Assembly: GCF_018837975.1 (NCBI RefSeq)
Contig: NZ_JAGSOY010000004.1
Coordinates: 62,001-126,000, forward strand
Origin: Zooshikella harenae
GTDB taxonomy: Bacteria > Pseudomonadota > Gammaproteobacteria > Pseudomonadales > Zooshikellaceae
Direction of reading: 5' to 3'
Length of the DNA stretch: 64,000 bases
The translations under genes were made by a program, and so were the position numbers. Every line of letters begins with the position of its first letter. The stretch's first letter is position 1. The notes beneath the pieces were generated by a model. That model ran no database searches and was not told the DNA's origin. It saw only the letters and a list, made by a program, of their open reading frames with translations. Positions 7,995 through 58,876 of the stretch are shown here, one piece after another.

Positions 7995-8741
7995 ATGCAG
8001 TATCTATGTCCCTCTTTTGCCACACTTGCAAAGCAACAGCAACTTATCCACTTTAGCGATTTCTGGGACTTAACAACACCTTGGTTTGAACCCCCCAACC
8101 ATCGTCGTAATGGCTGGAGTGGTGTTATCGAATACCCATTAATGGATAATAGCGGACACATACACCGCTACTTTATAAAGCGACAAGAAAATCACAACAC
8201 ACGTAGTTTGCGCCATCCTTTTGCAGGGGAACCAACGTATCGTCGTGAATTGATTAGTATTCTGAAATTACAGACTCTCAATATACCTACCCTGGAAGTA
8301 GTGTATTACCAAGAGCGAAAAGTAAAAGGAAACCATCAAGCTATTTTAATTACCAAAGCACTTGAAAACTTTCAAAGCTTTGGTCAGTGGTATGAAAGTA
8401 AACCGGATGAAAATCAAATATCATTGGCGTTTCAACAACTTGCCGCCATTGTTAAACAGCTTCACCAACATAAACTCGCACATTACTGTTTATATCCTAA
8501 TCATATTTTTATTAAACCCGACGAAAAAAATAAATTTGATATACGCCTAATTGATTTAGAGAAAGTGCGTTATACCCCTCTTTCTGCGCAAGGCCGTTAT
8601 AAGGACTTAGATTGCTTTTTACGCCATGCCTCAGGCTTTTCCAAACAACATTTAAACCTGTTTTTCAATGAGTATTTCAAAGACTTGTCCCAGTTTACTC
8701 ATATTCAAAATAAGTTAATGCAACAGTTACCGCAATCATAA
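7995..8741 (+). CDS. InaA-like lipopolysaccharide kinase family protein, copy 1
   Basis: 248 aa. Belongs to the WaaP/InaA branch of protein-kinase-fold enzymes, some of which phosphorylate sugars of the LPS core. Visible: conserved N-terminal WFEPPNHRRNGWSGV, the nucleotide-binding strand with FIKRQENHN (likely ATP-contacting Lys), LITKAL, the catalytic-loop equivalent HYCLYPNHIF, and the metal-binding Asp in LIDLEK. The frame is open 35 codons upstream across the VanZ-like stop, but the chosen ATG has an AGGA site. It is a paralogue of the gene 142 bp downstream. The substrate is inferred only from family. Confidence 0.82.
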   Translation: MQYLCPSFATLAKQQQLIHFSDFWDLTTPWFEPPNHRRNGWSGVIEYPLMDNSGHIHRYFIKRQENHNTRSLRHPFAGEPTYRRELISILKLQTLNIPTLEVVYYQERKVKGNHQAILITKALENFQSFGQWYESKPDENQISLAFQQLAAIVKQLHQHKLAHYCLYPNHIFIKPDEKNKFDIRLIDLEKVRYTPLSAQGRYKDLDCFLRHASGFSKQHLNLFFNEYFKDLSQFTHIQNKLMQQLPQS

Positions 8742-8809
8742 GACTATATTTAGCTGCAGCTAATTTTAGTTTTTAATATTTTTTAAAAGTGAGAACTACT
8801 TAAAGGCTA

Positions 8810-8836
8810 TGACATTTCCCTTCAAGGGCAATGTCA
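8810..8836. repeat. Hairpin between the two InaA-like genes
   Basis: TGACATT / AATGTCA arms enclose CCCTT-CA-AGGG, giving an almost perfect hairpin (one T/C mismatch). A second inverted repeat follows: CATACGG (8841-8847) pairs with CCGTATG (8879-8885), which covers the ATG of the second gene. The first may terminate or stabilise mRNA; the second could mask the start codon. Confidence 0.5.
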
Positions 8837-8882
8837 TTACCATACGGTGACAATAATAAATACAAAGTGGTAGCGAAGCCGT

Positions 8883-9623
8883 ATGAATCACTTTATTGTT
8901 GCCTCACAAGCCGTTGCTGATCTTCTGACTCAAAATCAACTTAGTAGCTTTGAACAAATCTGGGAAACTGAGCTACCGTGGTTTGAGCCTCCAAATCACC
9001 GCCGAAATGGCTGGAGTGGTGTCAGTGAGCATCAGTTGCTTACTTCTTCAGGTAATCACATCAACATATTCATAAAGCGTCAGGAAAACCATAATACATT
9101 TAGCTTTCACCATCCCATCACAGGAATTCCTACTTTTTCTCGTGAGTTTAATAATTTAAAACGACTTTATCATATTGGTATCGGGGCTCCTCAACCACTA
9201 CTCTACGCAGAGCGCAATCACTGTGGCAAAAAACAAGCCGTTTTAATCACCAAAGCGCTTGATGGCTACTGTAGCTTAGAAAGCTGGTATCAACGCTATC
9301 CAAAAGCAACACTTCCAACACGCGAAAAATTACTTAGCTCCCTGGCAACATGCCTACGTACCTTTCACAATCATCATTTAGTCCATAACTGCCTTTATCC
9401 AAAACATATTTTTGTCACTAATGCAGAAAACCCTGATTACTTCCAAGTTTGCTTAATTGATTTAGAAAAAACCAAGCGTGTATTCAATGTAAAAAAACGC
9501 TGTAATCATGACTTACAACGTTTTATTCGACATGCAGACATCATCCCTAAGCCAGATATTCAGTGCTTTATGGAACGTTACCAGCTAGTAGATAATAGAC
9601 AGCATTACCTTCGTGCAAGTTAA
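8883..9623 (+). CDS. InaA-like lipopolysaccharide kinase family protein, copy 2
   Basis: 246 aa, a clear paralogue of the preceding gene: it shares WFEPPNHRRNGWSGV, FIKRQENHNT, VLITKALDG, the catalytic-loop motif HNCLYPKHIF and the metal Asp in LIDLEK, all in the same order and spacing. All kinase-fold residues seen in copy 1 are kept, so both copies are probably active rather than one being a relic. The ATG has no clear Shine-Dalgarno sequence and lies in one arm of a 7-bp inverted repeat. It probably acts at the inner face of the membrane on lipid A/core sugar or a related acceptor; the substrate is unknown. Confidence 0.82.
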   Translation: MNHFIVASQAVADLLTQNQLSSFEQIWETELPWFEPPNHRRNGWSGVSEHQLLTSSGNHINIFIKRQENHNTFSFHHPITGIPTFSREFNNLKRLYHIGIGAPQPLLYAERNHCGKKQAVLITKALDGYCSLESWYQRYPKATLPTREKLLSSLATCLRTFHNHHLVHNCLYPKHIFVTNAENPDYFQVCLIDLEKTKRVFNVKKRCNHDLQRFIRHADIIPKPDIQCFMERYQLVDNRQHYLRAS

Positions 9624-21569: not shown

Positions 21570-22346
21570 CTAGTGCTGTAAGATTTGGCTCAAAAACAGC
21601 TGGGTTCTTTCTGACTGAGGATTATTGAAAAATTCATTCGGATTATTTTCCTCAATGATTTGTCCGCCATCCATAAAGACCACACGATTAGCAACTGTTT
21701 TCGCAAAACCCATTTCATGCGTAACACATAACATGGTCATGCCGTCTTCAGCCAGCTCAATCATGGTATCCAGTACTTCCTTAATCATTTCTGGGTCCAA
21801 GGCTGATGTTGGCTCATCAAACAACATAACTTCAGGATTCATACATAAACTTCTTGCAATTGCCACTCGCTGCTGCTGTCCTCCTGATAACTGACCAGGA
21901 TATTTAAGTGCCTGGTCAGGAATCTTTACTCGTTGCAGATAATTCATTGCAATTTCTTCAGCCTCTTTTTTAGGCATTTTTCGTACCCAAACAGGTGCCA
22001 GGCAGCAATTCTCTAAAACAGTCAAGTGAGGAAATAAATTAAAATGCTGAAACACCATACCCACTTCTCGTCGAATCACCTCTATATTTTTAAGGTCATT
22101 TGTTAAAGGTGTTCCAGCCACAATAATATCGCCGGTTTGGTGTTCTTCTAATCGGTTGATACACCTTATCGTGGTTGATTTTCCTGAGCCTGATGGACCA
22201 CATAATACGATTCTTTCTCCTCGGCGAACCATAATATTAATATCCTTTAATACATGGAAGTCACCATACCATTTATTAACACTGCGCATTTCCACCATAA
22301 TCTCATCAGAGATTGCCATTAGGTTTTGCTGAAGCTCATTACTCAT
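21570..22346 (-). CDS. aapP: Polar amino acid ABC transporter ATP-binding protein AapP
   Basis: 258 aa ATPase powering import of general L-amino acids. Walker [10 protein letters not shown] near residue 52, Q-loop VFQHFNLFP, signature LSGGQQQR, Walker [13 protein letters not shown], then the H-loop VTHEMGF. The ATG is preceded by GGGAG at 8 nt; a GTG 8 codons earlier would lie in the palindromic repeat and is unlikely. It is the last gene of aapJQMP and is separated from aapM by the 127-bp repeat, which may alter its expression relative to the permeases. Confidence 0.93.
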
Positions 22347-22358
22347 GATACAACTCCC

Positions 22359-22485
22359 TATCCCCTTCACGAATCATTTTTAGGGTTTGTTGTCGGCGTT
22401 CTTCACTCCAGTCACTTATTATTATAAGCTCCTGGAGCTTCATCACTTGACGGCCGCCCCTAAAAACCCTTCGTAATGGGTATAA
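22359..22485. repeat. 127-bp palindromic dispersed repeat, copy 1 (MITE-like)
   Basis: The copy lies between aapM and aapP. The second copy is at 58139-58265. The ends are imperfect inverted repeats: TTTTTAGGG near the left end pairs with CCCTAAAAA near the right end, and the right terminus GGGTAT pairs with a left ATCCC/ATACCC. A central stem CTCCAG / CTGGAG flanks a loop rich in A and T. It codes for nothing. A folded RNA or a non-autonomous mobile element is likely. Confidence 0.8.
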
Positions 22486-22488
22486 TTA

Positions 22489-23589
22489 TTATGATTTATG
22501 CCCAGTATCTAATTTCTTTTCTAATGCTTGACTATAACGAGACATACCAAAGCAGAAGACCCAAAATACCAAACCAACAAACACATACCCTTCAACTGAG
22601 TAACCAGCCCATTTTGCATCAGCCAATCCAGCTTGAACGATAGCCAGCAAATCTAATAAGCCAATAATCAACACAAGACTGGTGTCTTTAAATAAAGCAA
22701 TAAACGTATTAACGATGCCCGGTATCATCAACTTGAGCGCTTGCGGTAAAATAATGAGTCCCATCATTTTCCAATAGGACAAACCTAACGCACTCGCAGC
22801 TTCATATTGTCCCTTGGGAATGGCCTGTAATCCACCTCTAACAACTTCTGCCATATAAGCAGACTGAAACATCACAATACCTATCAATGCACGTAATAAT
22901 TTGTCAAAAACAATCTCCTCAGGGATAAAAAGCGGTAACATCACTGAAGCCATAAACAGTACCGTAATCAATGGTACTCCACGCCAAATTTCAATAAATA
23001 ACGTACAAAACGTTTTAATGACAGGCATGGTTGAACGTCGCCCAAGTGCTAACAAAATACCAAAAGGCAATGCGGCAACGATTCCCACAACAGCAAGAAT
23101 CAGCGTTAGCATCAAGCCACCCCATTTATGGGTTTCAACAACCTCCAAGCCAAATGCGCCGCCATAGACCAAATAAAAAGTAATAACTGGAAAAGCCGTC
23201 AGCGTAAATATAACAATCGACTTTTTATTGGGTGTTTTTTCTGTAATAAGTAATGCAATTAATGAGGCAAAAAGAAGAAAAACACAATTGACTCGCCAGT
23301 AAAATTCCTCAGGATAAAAGCCATAAACAAATTGATTCAAGCGTGTTTTAATAAATACCCAACATGCCCCACCTACCGCACAATCATCACGAGTTTCTCC
23401 CACCCAACTAGCATCAATCAATGCCCACTTAATCACTGGCACAACACCAATGTAGATTAAATACACTGCAAACAGTGTTAATAGCGTATTCGTCACCGAT
23501 GAGAACAGATTGGCACGAATCCATCCAAAAGCCCCATCAGAACGTCGTGGTGGGGGTAAATCAGGCAATTTTGTATCACTGTGAATCAT
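22489..23589 (-). CDS. aapM: Polar amino acid ABC transporter permease AapM
   Basis: 366 aa inner-membrane permease, with about eight membrane helices. The binding-protein-dependent permease motif EAASALGLSYWKMMGLIILPQALK (EAA loop, about residues 265-288) contacts AapP. Long N-terminal cytoplasmic segment rich in Pro/Arg, then the AapM-type opening DGAFGWIRANLF. The ATG used here starts 4 bp after the aapQ stop and has GGAGAGGT upstream; an upstream alternative start would overlap aapQ. The assignment as M rather than Q rests on the N-terminus and gene order J-Q-M-P. Confidence 0.92.
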   Translation of the reverse strand: MIHSDTKLPDLPPPRRSDGAFGWIRANLFSSVTNTLLTLFAVYLIYIGVVPVIKWALIDASWVGETRDDCAVGGACWVFIKTRLNQFVYGFYPEEFYWRVNCVFLLFASLIALLITEKTPNKKSIVIFTLTAFPVITFYLVYGGAFGLEVVETHKWGGLMLTLILAVVGIVAALPFGILLALGRRSTMPVIKTFCTLFIEIWRGVPLITVLFMASVMLPLFIPEEIVFDKLLRALIGIVMFQSAYMAEVVRGGLQAIPKGQYEAASALGLSYWKMMGLIILPQALKLMIPGIVNTFIALFKDTSLVLIIGLLDLLAIVQAGLADAKWAGYSVEGYVFVGLVFWVFCFGMSRYSQALEKKLDTGHKS

Positions 23590-23593
23590 GCTA

Positions 23594-24781
23594 TTACCTC
23601 TCCACCAATGCAATTCGTTTGTTATACCAATTCATGAACAGTGAAATAAGCAAACTCAAGGTCAAGTACACCGCCATTGTCATGGCGATCACTTCAATGG
23701 CCTGACCTGTTTGATTCAGCGTCGTACCCGCAAACACAGATACTAAATCTGGATAACCAATAGCAGTGGCTAAAGAAGAGTTTTTAACTAAATTAAGGTA
23801 CTGACTGGTTAATGGTGGAATAATGACGCGCATTGCCTGAGGAATAATGACCAGTTTAAGCATTTTGGGGCGTGATAGCCCTAATGCAAGCGATGCCTCA
23901 GTCTGACCTTTATTTATAGATAAAATACCTGATCTGACTATTTCTGCAATAAATGCCGCAGTATAAACACTCAAAGCCAATAAAAGTGCTAGAAATTCAG
24001 GAATAACCGTAATACCACCACGATAATTAAATCCACGTAGTGTTGGCACCTCCCAATTTATTGGGCTACCAACAATAAAGTAGGTCAGTGCAGGTAAACC
24101 AAGCATGATAGCCAGTGATATGCTGACAATAGGAAAGCTTTTACCTGTCGCATCCTGCCGAACCTTTGCCCAACGCCTTACCCCAAAAACCACAAGCAAA
24201 GATAATACAAACGCGACCAGCACCCAGCCAAAACCTTCTACAAAATTAGGATCAGGCAGGGCAAGTCCACGATTATTAAGAAAGAAAACGTCAAAGAATT
24301 CGATGCTTTGCTTGGGTCTTGGTAAAGGTCTAAGCACCGCAAAATACCAAAAGAAAATTTGCAGTAATAATGGAATATTCCGAAACGTTTCAATATAAAC
24401 AGCAGATATTTTTGCAATTAACCAGTTGTTAGATAACCTCGCAATACCAATAATAAAACCAAGTACCGTAGCAATGATGATACCTATCGATGCAACCAAT
24501 ATGGTATTTAACAAGCCAACAAAAAATGTACGACCATATGAATGACTTTCGTCATACTCAATAAGACTCTGATTTATACCAAATCCGGCTTCAGACCATA
24601 AAAAGTCAAATCCAGTTTTGATACCTCTAGAATCGAGATTATGAAGTGTATTCGAGACAATATAAGCACCACATATTATCAAGAATACCAACATAATTAT
24701 TTGATAAAGCATGGATCGCTTTTCAGGGTCATTCCAAAAAGCCGTGTGTCCCTTAGCCAGATCCTTCTTTTTTTCCGGCAT
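23594..24781 (-). CDS. aapQ: Polar amino acid ABC transporter permease AapQ
   Basis: 395 aa, with about eight membrane helices. N-terminus has FWNDPEKRSMLYQ, typical of AapQ, followed by a large periplasmic loop with an LNTILVASIGI helix. The EAA loop TEASLALGLSRPKMLKLVIIPQAMR lies near residue 295. The ATG follows GGAGA at 9-nt spacing; a TTG two codons earlier is too close to that site. It lies between aapJ (162 bp away) and aapM (4 bp), so it begins the tightly packed part of the operon. Confidence 0.92.
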   Translation of the reverse strand: MPEKKKDLAKGHTAFWNDPEKRSMLYQIIMLVFLIICGAYIVSNTLHNLDSRGIKTGFDFLWSEAGFGINQSLIEYDESHSYGRTFFVGLLNTILVASIGIIIATVLGFIIGIARLSNNWLIAKISAVYIETFRNIPLLLQIFFWYFAVLRPLPRPKQSIEFFDVFFLNNRGLALPDPNFVEGFGWVLVAFVLSLLVVFGVRRWAKVRQDATGKSFPIVSISLAIMLGLPALTYFIVGSPINWEVPTLRGFNYRGGITVIPEFLALLLALSVYTAAFIAEIVRSGILSINKGQTEASLALGLSRPKMLKLVIIPQAMRVIIPPLTSQYLNLVKNSSLATAIGYPDLVSVFAGTTLNQTGQAIEVIAMTMAVYLTLSLLISLFMNWYNKRIALVER

Positions 24782-29142: not shown

Positions 29143-29383
29143 AAATAAGCCTGGTATGAGAAAAACTCATGATACCCCTAAGTTTAATCGTTTGCTTATT
29201 TTATGCTAACTCGTTGTAATCACCCTGTTTTGCAATGGTAAGTTTAACCACTGAAATCACTTCAGACTTGCCCTATTCTCATTATTATTAATAGCCAGTG
29301 CGAATGGTTTTTAGGCGAGGCCATCGAGCGAAGATAACAAAGCATAAAAATCATACGCGAAGGGTATAGAAGTAGTAGTTATT

Positions 29384-56720: not shown

Positions 56721-58079
56721 TTAGTGTCCTGCCACTGTCATTTGCTCTATCAGCAACGAACCCGTCTTCACATTACTCCGCCAGTCAATGTCATTACCTA
56801 TAGCAACAAGATTGCGAAACATATTTTTTAGGTTACTGGCAATGGTTACTTCAGAAACTGGAAACTGGATTTTGCCATTTTCAACCCAAAAGCCAGCTGC
56901 TCCACGAGAATAATCACCCGTGACAGCATTAATCCCATGCCCCATCAGCTCAGTAACAAGCAGACCACGATCCATCTTCTTCAGTAAATCATTCAAAGAG
57001 TAATCATGTGGTTCAATAAAAAGATTATGCACTCCACCCGCATTTGCCGTGCTTTGTATTTTCAGTTTGCGTGCAGAATAAGTGCTTAATACATAACTTT
57101 GTAGAACACCATCAGTTACAAAATCTTTTGCATAAGTCGCCAAACCATCATTATCAAAAGCAGCACTACCAATGACACCTTTTAGGTGAGGCTGCTCGTG
57201 AATTCTTACATTATCTGGAAATATTTGTTGATCTAGACTGTTTAGCAAAAATGATGCTTCTCTGTATTGGCTAGAGCCTGTTACTGCAGAAAGAAAATGT
57301 CCCAGTATGGAACTCGCTAATTCTGCTGAAAAAAGGACAGGAACCTGACAGGTTTCCACTTTTCGTGACCCTAAGCGGGCAACTGTCCGCTCAGCTGCTT
57401 TTGCGCCTACCTGCTCTGCTGCTTGCAGATCTCCACTATTTCGCGCAATGGTATACCAATAATCTCTCTGCATCTCCTTTTGCTGTTGGGCAATCATTAC
57501 ACAACTAATACTATGACGACTTGATAAATAGCTGCCTAAAAAACCATTAGAGTTTCCGTACAAACGACACCCCTGATGGCTGGCAACCGTCGCACCTTCA
57601 GAGTTACAAATAAGGTCACTTTGTTGGAATGCTGCCGCTTCAGTGGTTTTCGCCAGATCCACAGCTTGCTCAGGCGTAATGCCCCAAGGATGATATAGAT
57701 CCAAGTCAGGAATTTGCTGTGCCATCTGCTCAGGATCAGCCAATCCTGCACAGTCATCTTCTGATGTATATCGAGCAATATTCACCGCCGCAGCAACGGT
57801 GTCTTCAATCGCCTCAGGGGAGCTATCTGAAGTACTGGCTGACCCTTTACGCTTCCCGACATAAGCCGTAATACCAAAACCGCGATCACAGTTGAACTCT
57901 ACTGTTTCAACTTCGCCCTTACGCACACTAGCAGATAAGCCTGTATCCAAGCTGACACCGACCTCAGCCGCCGTGGCGCCTTGTCGCTTCGCTTCTGTGA
58001 GAATTTGTTCAACCAGGCTTTCTAGTTGTTTTTGCTCGACCTTAGGATCGATAGAATGAGAATGTTGTTGCACAGTCAT
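56721..58079 (-). CDS. pmbA: Metalloprotease-related protein PmbA/TldE
   Basis: 452 aa from MTVQQHSHS; an upstream open frame of 26 codons is not family-like. PmbA (TldE) pairs with TldD, the metal-binding subunit, to make the TldD/E protease that matures microcin B17 and degrades CcdA. It lacks the HExxxH motif, as all TldE do. Blocks: GLSASVRKGEVETVEFNCDRGFG, PVLFSAELASSILGHFLSAVTG, GVHNLFIEPHD and the final TGSLLIEQMTVAG. tldD lies 0.8 kb away. A dispersed repeat lies just upstream. Confidence 0.94.
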   Translation of the reverse strand: MTVQQHSHSIDPKVEQKQLESLVEQILTEAKRQGATAAEVGVSLDTGLSASVRKGEVETVEFNCDRGFGITAYVGKRKGSASTSDSSPEAIEDTVAAAVNIARYTSEDDCAGLADPEQMAQQIPDLDLYHPWGITPEQAVDLAKTTEAAAFQQSDLICNSEGATVASHQGCRLYGNSNGFLGSYLSSRHSISCVMIAQQQKEMQRDYWYTIARNSGDLQAAEQVGAKAAERTVARLGSRKVETCQVPVLFSAELASSILGHFLSAVTGSSQYREASFLLNSLDQQIFPDNVRIHEQPHLKGVIGSAAFDNDGLATYAKDFVTDGVLQSYVLSTYSARKLKIQSTANAGGVHNLFIEPHDYSLNDLLKKMDRGLLVTELMGHGINAVTGDYSRGAAGFWVENGKIQFPVSEVTIASNLKNMFRNLVAIGNDIDWRSNVKTGSLLIEQMTVAGH

Positions 58080-58138
58080 AAATATATTTAAACTTTTAAA
58101 TGTTAAACGTGCTGAGTCAAGTGATCCAGGCTCGTTAT

Positions 58139-58265
58139 TATACCCTTCACAAATCATTTTTAGGGTTTGTTGTCAGCGCTCTTCACCTCAGTCACTTATT
58201 AATATAAGCTCCTGAGGCTTCATCGCTTGACAGCCGCCCCTAAAAACCCTTCGTATTGGGTATAT
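58139..58265. repeat. 127-bp palindromic dispersed repeat, copy 2 (MITE-like)
   Basis: Same length and orientation as the copy at 22359-22485 and about 85-90% identical by eye. The central stem here is CCTCAG / CTGAGG, where copy 1 has CTCCAG / CTGGAG, so both arms changed together. The second stem TGTCA / TGACA is TGTCG / TGACG in copy 1, kept as wobble pairs. It lies between divergent pmbA and yjgA and may carry or influence promoters. Confidence 0.8.
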
Positions 58266-58336
58266 GAATCAAGTAGTGTTAACTCAGATGATTCAGGCTA
58301 CAATTGCGCCATACTGTAACAAAGATTCCTAGCAGA

Positions 58337-58876
58337 ATGATGACTGAAGACTTAACTGACGAATTTGATGATTATAAGAGTAAATCCCAGCTCAAGCGTG
58401 AAATGCATGCTTTACAAGCATTAGGCCAACGCTTGCTGGAATTAAAACCAGATATTCTTAAGCAAATTCCTTTAAACGACAGATTACGCCAAGCAGTGGA
58501 AGAAGGTAAACGCATTAAAAGCTTTAATGCCCAAAAACGTCACCTGCAGTTTATTGGCAAGCTCATGCGAGACCAAGATACTGAAGCAATCATTGCAACA
58601 CTAGATCGCCTTGATAGCACTAGTGAAGAATCAGCACGACGCTTCCACTTGCTTGAACGTTGGCGTGATCGACTACTTGATGACACCACCAGCCAAGAAT
58701 CACTCAATGAGTTGGTAACTCAGTGCCCAGAAGTTGAGATTCAACATGTAAGGCAACTGATTCGCCAAGCTCACAAAGAAACGGCAGCCAATAAACCTCC
58801 CAGTGCCAGCCGTAAGCTCTTTCGTTACCTACGTGAGCTGGACCAGCAACAGGATTTTTTAGGTAAAACCAGCTAA
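58337..58876 (+). CDS. yjgA: Ribosome biogenesis factor YjgA (DarP)
   Basis: 179 aa. Helical, charged protein with KSKSQLKREMHALQALGQRLLELK at the N-terminus, RIKSFNAQKRHLQFIGKLMR in the centre and SRKLFRYLRELDQ near the end, which define YjgA (DUF615). In E. coli it acts late in 50S subunit maturation at the peptidyl-transferase centre. Two ATG codons stand in tandem; the first is used here. An upstream TTG is rejected. Convergent with tldD. Confidence 0.93.
   Translation: MMTEDLTDEFDDYKSKSQLKREMHALQALGQRLLELKPDILKQIPLNDRLRQAVEEGKRIKSFNAQKRHLQFIGKLMRDQDTEAIIATLDRLDSTSEESARRFHLLERWRDRLLDDTTSQESLNELVTQCPEVEIQHVRQLIRQAHKETAANKPPSASRKLFRYLRELDQQQDFLGKTS

Follow-up and report, generated by a model that had tools for sequence, protein, structure and literature searches.

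Two nearly identical palindromes lie 36 kb apart in the window, the 64,000-nucleotide stretch of the Zooshikella harenae genome analyzed here (source assembly of 5.91 Mb in 377 contigs). Some of the differences between the two copies fall at matching positions on both arms of a stem, and the original prediction took this as a sign that the folded form is selected, either as an RNA or as a hairpin recognized by a transposase. The locus raises the questions of what these repeats are, how they came to lie where they do, and what has kept their arms paired.

Identity and spread of the repeats

Both repeats belong to ERIC (also IRU or MITEEc1), which is a non-autonomous miniature inverted-repeat transposable element (MITE), here in a Zooshikella genome. 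A reading of them as a new element is not supported: their length, tip, TA ends, core, and fold place them in this known one. As described in the available part of a 2007 review, ERIC has 127 bp, a 7-bp terminal inverted repeat (TIR), TA ends, and a target-site duplication, and its movement by a transposase was without experimental support (PMC2229807). The two window copies have the tips TATACCC...GGGTATA, with TATCCCC as the left tip of copy 1. They are of equal length, as predicted, but the span is 126 nt and not 127, since position 22485 is flanking DNA (Table 1).

Table 1. Annotated features of the window, in window coordinates.
Feature	Position	Strand	Remark
AapP-like polar amino acid ABC transporter ATPase	21570..22370	-	ORF as listed; likely ATG near 22346, beyond the element (start inferred)
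ERIC copy 1	22359..22484	+	126 nt, both TA ends counted; aapM-like/aapP-like spacer
TA target-site duplication, left	22359..22360	.	single TA at the empty site
TA target-site duplication, right	22483..22484	.	single TA at the empty site
AapM-like amino acid ABC permease	22489..23613	-	stop codon 4 nt from copy 1
ERIC copy 3, diverged, internal deletion, 79 nt	29290..29368	-	inverted-repeat pairs and covariance model, 56.3 bits, E 4.8e-10
PmbA metalloprotease	56721..58157	-	ORF as listed; start probably near 58079, beyond the element (start inferred)
ERIC copy 2	58139..58264	+	126 nt, both TA ends counted; spacer of divergent pmbA/yjgA
YjgA ribosome biogenesis factor	58304..58876	+	divergent from pmbA

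ERIC is widely used for bacterial typing. The published ERIC-PCR primers were compared with the window. They fell at the palindrome core of both copies in the right order, one primer matching 17 and 18 of 22 bases and the other 16 of 22 in each copy; the highest scores elsewhere in the window were 14-15 of 22. An Rfam scan of the window gave no match at the gathering score. Elsewhere in the window, positions 8078-9022 carry direct repeats of 48-50 nt, spaced by about 900 nt and 72-83% identical, perhaps a duplication.

The claim that the element occurs in two copies did not survive a wider search. A third copy lies in the window itself, and blastn with copy 1 as query returned 44 rows from the genome, or about 40 copies. 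A covariance model (R1) trained on 29 of these copies, all from this genome, gave 98 matches at E≤0.01; because 150 of 3300 first-look candidates were scored, this count is incomplete and its weakest members may be chance. Among 70 aligned model matches, 38 are 120-130 nt long, 22 are 160-190 nt, four are 233-236 nt, and six have other lengths. The copies of 160-190 nt contain inserts: 20 of the 22 have one of about 49 nt, always at the same site, and two have one of about 60 nt near the center. Forms of ERIC with internal insertions and deletions were reportedly described by Wilson and Sharp in 2006. The subfamily of about 175 nt (L072, L074, L075, L077, L078, L080-L083, and others in L086-L100) has a conserved insert of about 49 nt, seemingly with inverted repeats of its own.

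Searching the genome with the ERIC left end gave 120 matches. Lone left ends were looked for in 20 stretches, each about 1 to 4 kb long, that surround ends absent from the copy list, among the matches listed. With up to four mismatches, matching right ends in these stretches occurred solely at an ERIC-like distance or came from known copies, and the stretches inspected were decayed copies, insertion variants, or 42-bp forms consisting of the tips only. The tip-only form, TATACCCTTCACAAATCATTTTTAGGCTTTGTTATGGGTATA, is identical at two sites (C13:89008-89049, which is L115:109-150, and C223:3411-3452, which is L117:1012-1053). Either the same deletion happened twice, or this is a mobile mini-ERIC of 42 bp.

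Similarity to the ERIC of E. coli was clearest at the level of the model: R1, trained on Z. harenae alone, matched the E. coli element upstream of metE with an E-value of 7.8e-10 (search of 66 kb). Plain DNA similarity to E. coli is weak on its own. Some match at E≤10 turned up in 5375 of 5426 genomes, but no genome had a single stretch covering 80% of the query, and the strongest match listed was 75% over 68% of the query at E 2e-3. An exact family core pattern was present in 91 stretches of named genomes, whose hosts include Serratia, Escherichia, Salmonella, Yersinia, Xenorhabdus, Sodalis, Vibrio, Rheinheimera, Arsukibacterium, Endozoicomonas, Candidatus Endonucleobacter, Z. ganghwensis, and a metagenome-assembled genome (MAG) labeled Klebsiella. 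The ERIC on this Klebsiella pneumoniae MAG contig (L140) resembles the type of genome G036 and is unlike enterobacterial ERICs, and the contig may be mislabeled. Thirty-three cross-genus loci were picked, partly for clean tips; 32 gave both tips at lengths of 126-129 nt, from up to 14 genera, and one was without tips. Copies with worn tips were left out of this alignment, including those from E. coli, Yersinia, Salmonella, Citrobacter, and Rahnella as well as three of five inspected V. litoralis copies.

Zooshikella, a marine bacterium, belongs to the Zooshikellaceae, placed in the Oceanospirillales in NCBI taxonomy. R1 matched seven of 56 genomes in a set of relatives: all five genomes of the family, with Z. 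harenae counted, and two that belong to the order but not to the family. A cross-genus model, R2, matched 13 of 369 genomes across the class at E≤1e-6, with strict filters and nine candidates scored per genome, and the distribution of ERIC in the class is patchy. One genome, G083, has ERIC-like elements of 126 nt (three of its 28 matches read: L270, L273, L276) that are nearly identical to one another, are tipped by TATACTC, and have another core, CTCAGTCATGTATTCAGTATACACTCC; they are perhaps a recently expanded relative of ERIC. The available part of a 2007 paper gives a related repeat in Vibrio as the most distant host (PMC2759123), and in that of a 2024 review the hosts named for ERIC are Enterobacteriaceae and Vibrionaceae (PMC10969869). 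Zooshikella extends the range beyond the hosts named there. A literature search found no relevant report on ERIC in Oceanospirillales, Rheinheimera, or Endozoicomonas, or on Zooshikella repeats, which leaves absence from print unproven.

Insertion history and neighboring genes

Target-site duplication, sought as a mark of transposition, was found for copy 1. At the corresponding site of the sister species, Z. ganghwensis, the flanks abut at one TA and the element is absent, while the window has TA at both ends. The presumed ribosome-binding bases of aapP lie just outside copy 1 and are retained in both species. We infer an insertion here instead of a precise excision. At the copy 2 site, Z. 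ganghwensis has TATACCC joined directly to TTCGTATTGGGTATA, a relic that fits a deletion between the element's two ACCCTTC words; therefore, the copy 2 insertion is older. The element is also absent from Z. ganghwensis at a third site (L014), where the spacer cannot be aligned and so is uninformative on duplication. A clean TA duplication was thus seen at one of three orthologous sites, the other two being the deletion relic and the unalignable spacer. The case yields one insertion that the sister species lacks and one that survives there as a deletion relic.

As originally described, copy 1 splits the aapM-like from the aapP-like gene, and copy 2 sits in the spacer between the divergent pmbA and yjgA. 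The name Aap for the genes at 21570..23613 is the label given in that description. Provided that the aap genes share one transcript, copy 1 is read in it as its reverse complement. The 31 copies of the genome whose surroundings were scored lie in every gene arrangement: 12 are co-directional, nine divergent, and seven convergent, two have a gene on one side only, and one overlaps an ORF. The copies are dispersed, mostly intergenic, and non-coding, as only one of the 31 overlaps an ORF of at least 300 nt by more than 60 nt (rough ORF calls). Among the 12 co-directional placements, eight are in the orientation of copy 1 and four in the opposite one, numbers too small to claim an orientation bias.

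Copy 1 may affect aapP expression. In a transcript running from aapM to aapP it would fold as a long hairpin, which could change mRNA processing or stability in the manner of Yersinia ERICs. ERIC-dependent destabilization of mRNA in Yersinia is attributed to De Gregorio 2005 in the parts available of PMC2229807, PMC3049150, and PMC10969869; the first of these states that the upstream mRNA is destabilized in an orientation-dependent way through an RNase E site.

Pairing and substitution in the stems

The pairwise comparison of copies 1 and 2 gave 12 differing columns. Four of these form two fully compensated pairs in the central stem (CTCCAG/CTGGAG versus CCTCAG/CTGAGG), bearing out the claim that changes there match on both arms. 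Two more are A-U versus G.U alternatives in the second stem, so that TGTCA/TGACA becomes TGTCG/TGACG and stays paired as wobble, also as predicted. One column disrupts a pair in the tip of copy 1, and the remaining five lie outside pairs. On either strand, the two copies fold far better than their shuffled versions (z of -5.4 to -9.9, with 0 of 200 shuffles as good in each of the four folds).

Across genera, the pairing is well kept. In the 32 cross-genus copies, 96.2% of 992 cells are paired, 19 of 31 pairs have a change on both sides, and 173 cells are doubly changed; these measures were reached by 0 of 500 shuffles, and structures slid along the alignment were 30-44% paired. The structures were built from the same alignments on which they were tested, which favors them, and kinship of copies can beat shuffles without any structure. 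At least three pair types occur at several positions, and the number of further pair types was not above the shuffles (200 of 500). Since cross-genus pairing and compensation beat the shuffles, the structural reading is valid for the family.

Within Z. harenae, eight of 36 pairs show a double change, and 12 cells are doubly changed compared with 1.4 in shuffles. Single substitutions gave a different picture. They were counted in 29 copies, over 126 columns of which 72 are paired and 54 unpaired. Private substitutions fell in paired columns 27 times out of 55 and in unpaired ones 28 times, so that stems were not significantly spared (p 0.28). Nine of the 27 in stems pair with the consensus partner, where 9.1 were expected, and 12 pair with the actual partner (p 0.31). 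Shared substitutions make up 159 cells, 70 paired and 89 unpaired; among the 70, pairing with the consensus partner is retained in 37 against 34.0 expected (p 0.48), and pairing with the actual partner in 48. When each distinct shared substitution was counted once, 24 of 44 lay in paired columns (p 0.76). Within the genome, the excess of double changes is the sole signal for the fold.

Because single substitutions avoid neither stems nor the breaking of pairs, the data within the genome do not establish selection on each copy. The claim that the folded form is selected is upheld in part: the family-wide covariation (19 of 31 pairs) speaks for it, and the single substitutions in Z. harenae, which neither spare stems nor clearly favor pairing, do not extend it to the individual copies. 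The original prediction had named random substitutions falling outside stems just as often as the outcome that would count against it, and this is what was seen inside the genome and not across genera. We infer that selection acts on the source elements. The fold would then be kept mainly because sources must stay mobile or harmless, and not for a service that each copy renders to the host. When two copies of a mobile element differ by matched changes, it does not follow that each of them is a functioning RNA.

Two other accounts of the paired changes were considered. If the copies were a host regulatory RNA, retained to control neighboring genes, pairing would be selected at each locus. The stable folds of copies 1 and 2, the place of copy 1 inside an operon, the family-wide covariation, and the excess of double changes in the genome are all consistent with this. 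It is nevertheless very unlikely, since the sister species is without copy 1 and has only a relic of copy 2, private substitutions do not avoid stems and keep pairing at the expected rate, the copies lie in every gene arrangement, and no Rfam family was matched at gathering scores. The other account is mutational: template switching or conversion between the arms of the palindrome would copy a mutation in one arm onto its partner. In favor of this are the long inverted repeat that ERIC forms, the compensation on both arms of the central-stem differences between copies 1 and 2, and the single substitutions within the genome, which do not clearly avoid stems. On the other side stand the mismatched intermediate CCCCAG/CTGAGG, with one position unpaired, in three of the 29 copies, and the at least three pair types seen at several positions across genera. 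The intermediates mean that the double change between copies 1 and 2 need not have been simultaneous. With the methods used, selection and arm-to-arm copying are inseparable for any single pair; for the pattern as a whole, we regard copying between arms as unlikely, though less so than a regulatory RNA.

A candidate IS630 partner and known systems

A partner transposase with matching ends was sought, and a candidate with similar tips was found, although the match beyond the 7-bp tip is partial. Searching the genome for DDE_3 gave one match, an IS630 family transposase (NF033545). The element (L230:926-2046 on C13) is 1121 bp long with ERIC-like tips, TATACCCGTAGCGTTTGAGAATTAGG and TATCCCCAAAGCGTTTGAGTTTTAGG. 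Its transposase reading frame is interrupted, by either a programmed frameshift or decay. Related IS630s occur in seven of 369 genomes of the class, and further ones on plasmids. Those on Klebsiella and Vibrio plasmids have the upstream end TATACC[C/T]GTGAT[C/T]ATTGAAGA[C/T]GCTT and the downstream end TATACC[C/T/G]AAT[A/C]AAC[C/T]T[C/G]AAGATGCAG.

The ends of twelve such elements were compared with ERIC ends: that of Z. harenae, those of genomes G195, G083, and G381, and eight from plasmids. The elements were picked by protein similarity alone, and their tips were the best TA-bounded inverted repeat near the gene; the first rank was tied for the L283 pair, two registers were tied for the Z. 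harenae element, two pairs were tied for Acaryochloris, and a third-ranked shifted register was used for Anoxybacillus. The comparison excluded two duplicates (L283 and L268) and five elements that are without two clear tips (L261, L262, L266, L267, and L269). Past the tip, at positions 8-26, the best ERIC/IS630 pairs have 13-16 of 19 identical bases. Significance was taken from permutation within each end, as the alternative null contained degenerate ERIC ends. Eight of the 12 IS630s reached p≤0.037 at both ends; these values are not corrected for multiple testing, and three of the elements, that from Klebsiella and the two from Vibrio, are close relatives of one another. The Rhabdochlamydia element reached this level at one end, and those of Acaryochloris, Anoxybacillus, and Rhodovastum at neither.

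The two ends of ERIC differ, and the three bases behind the tip agree by side (IS630 upstream with ERIC left, downstream with right) in the elements of Z. harenae, G083, Klebsiella, and both Vibrio plasmids. For G381, the agreement is clear upstream and weak downstream; for G195, Allochromatium, and Rhabdochlamydia, it is upstream only; and it is absent in the three distant IS630s of Acaryochloris, Anoxybacillus, and Rhodovastum. The resident IS630 thus has positional similarity to ERIC ends that includes their asymmetry, set against partial identity past the 7-bp tip, an interrupted frame, and rare co-occurrence.

Co-occurrence of such IS630s with ERIC is weak. Two of the 13 ERIC-positive genomes of the class, Z. 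harenae and G083, have one at E≤1e-40 (Fisher p 0.02, and 0.18 without Z. harenae). The seven genomes with a related IS630 comprise these two, which have ERIC or ERIC-like elements, G232 with another MITE, and G086, G195, G248 (58% complete), and G381 with no match. In G232, two IS630 copies with 64-66% identity to that of Z. harenae stand beside a MITE of about 160 bp whose tips are almost identical to theirs (L271, L274, and L277 read, of 45 R2 matches), which means that this IS630 clade does make MITEs. A MITE can outlive its transposase, a point not counted here as support. The IS630s of the family relatives were tried as partners and set aside, having other tips (TAGTGGGCC..., TATAGCTTTCC...) and no likeness to ERIC. 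One IS630 of G036, also among the family relatives, has TATACTC at the start of either side, and several others yielded no clear tips.

These results bear on the chance that ERIC is moved by a transposase of another kind and that the likeness of the tips is convergence on a TA target site. The tip that stays invariant has few bases, and past it the IS630s of Acaryochloris, Anoxybacillus, and Rhodovastum are dissimilar; those of the Zooshikella family relatives have other tips, and just two of 13 ERIC-positive genomes carry a related IS630. This weak co-occurrence raises the odds of this alternative and lowers those of the broader proposal given below. We still consider convergence improbable, since eight of 12 IS630s match ERIC at both ends over positions 8-26 (uncorrected p≤0.037 each), left/right asymmetry agrees in the Z. 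harenae, G083, Klebsiella, and Vibrio elements, and a link between ERIC and IS630 was printed independently for Photorhabdus in what is available of PMC6267812.

Taken as a whole, the explanation that we prefer, with a probability of about 0.9, is that the repeats are ERIC copies in Zooshikella; movement by an IS630-type transposase and a fold maintained through the source elements are proposed along with it. The empty site with a single TA, the dispersed copies, and the family-wide pairing agree with the mobile hairpin of the original prediction. As a putative mechanism, an IS630 (Tc1/mariner) transposase of the "CCC" subgroup would recognize the TATACCC tips and the bases behind them, excise ERIC, and insert it at TA. 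A broader and more tentative proposal, to which we give somewhat less than even odds, is that gammaproteobacterial ERICs, that of E. coli included, are internal-deletion relatives of this subgroup, are still moved by it where it is present, have two distinct ends in the same left/right order, and are under selection for the fold in mobile sources only. The subgroup members would be the ISEc40 type in Enterobacterales and Vibrio and the L230 element in Zooshikella. This is a known element in a little-documented host clade, with a testable candidate partner. We know of no enzyme yet shown to move ERIC.

The Z. harenae element resembles ERIC/IRU/RU-1 (MITEEc1), as characterized in the available parts of PMC2229807, PMC2759123, and PMC10969869, in its length, 7-bp TIR tip with TA ends, TA duplication, palindromic fold, and dispersed non-coding copies. 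It differs from classic ERIC in its host family, its outer arms (ATCATTTTTAGGG/CCCTAAAAA compared with the TTCAAGTTGC type), and the insertion modules, about 49 and 60 nt long, that are its own. The IS630 idea had been published before: the relevant part of a 2018 paper links MITEPlu5, an ERIC relative in Photorhabdus luminescens, to CCC-type IS630s (PMC6267812). MITEPlu5 is the same kind of element, and its ends were compared there with ISPlu3, ISPlu8, and ISPlu19; it is unlike the Zooshikella ERIC in having 552 complete copies of 123 bp and another arm sequence. That part of the paper mentions neither Zooshikella nor ISEc40. In the passages available of the literature searched, the Zooshikella host, the ISEc40 comparison, and the asymmetry of ERIC ends were not found in print. 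Sequence support that includes this asymmetry is added here to the idea from Photorhabdus.

A similar partnership is described in the passages available on RUP of Streptococcus pneumoniae and IS630-Spn1 (PMC2229807, PMC3049150). RUP is a 107-bp MITE with IS630-like TIRs and TA targets; it differs in its Firmicute host and belongs to a different repeat family, set apart by description and not by sequence. Also close to the present case are the ISEc40-type IS630s of a Klebsiella plasmid (L281), a Vibrio plasmid (L284), and E. coli (L287), the last being the only one of the three annotated as ISEc40. Their upstream tip (TATACCCGTGATCATTGAAG...) resembles the ERIC left end, and the downstream tip of L281 and L287 (TATACCCAATAAACCTCAAG...) resembles the right end. 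Unlike ERIC, they are full-size with a transposase gene, and the E. coli member has 38% protein identity to the Zooshikella IS630. Relatives of the Klebsiella element covering at least 80% of it occur in 568 of 5426 complete E. coli genomes, the 12 best listed being annotated ISEc40. If the broader proposal is true, the decades-old ERIC of E. coli gains a transposase that can be named, one of the ISEc40 type.
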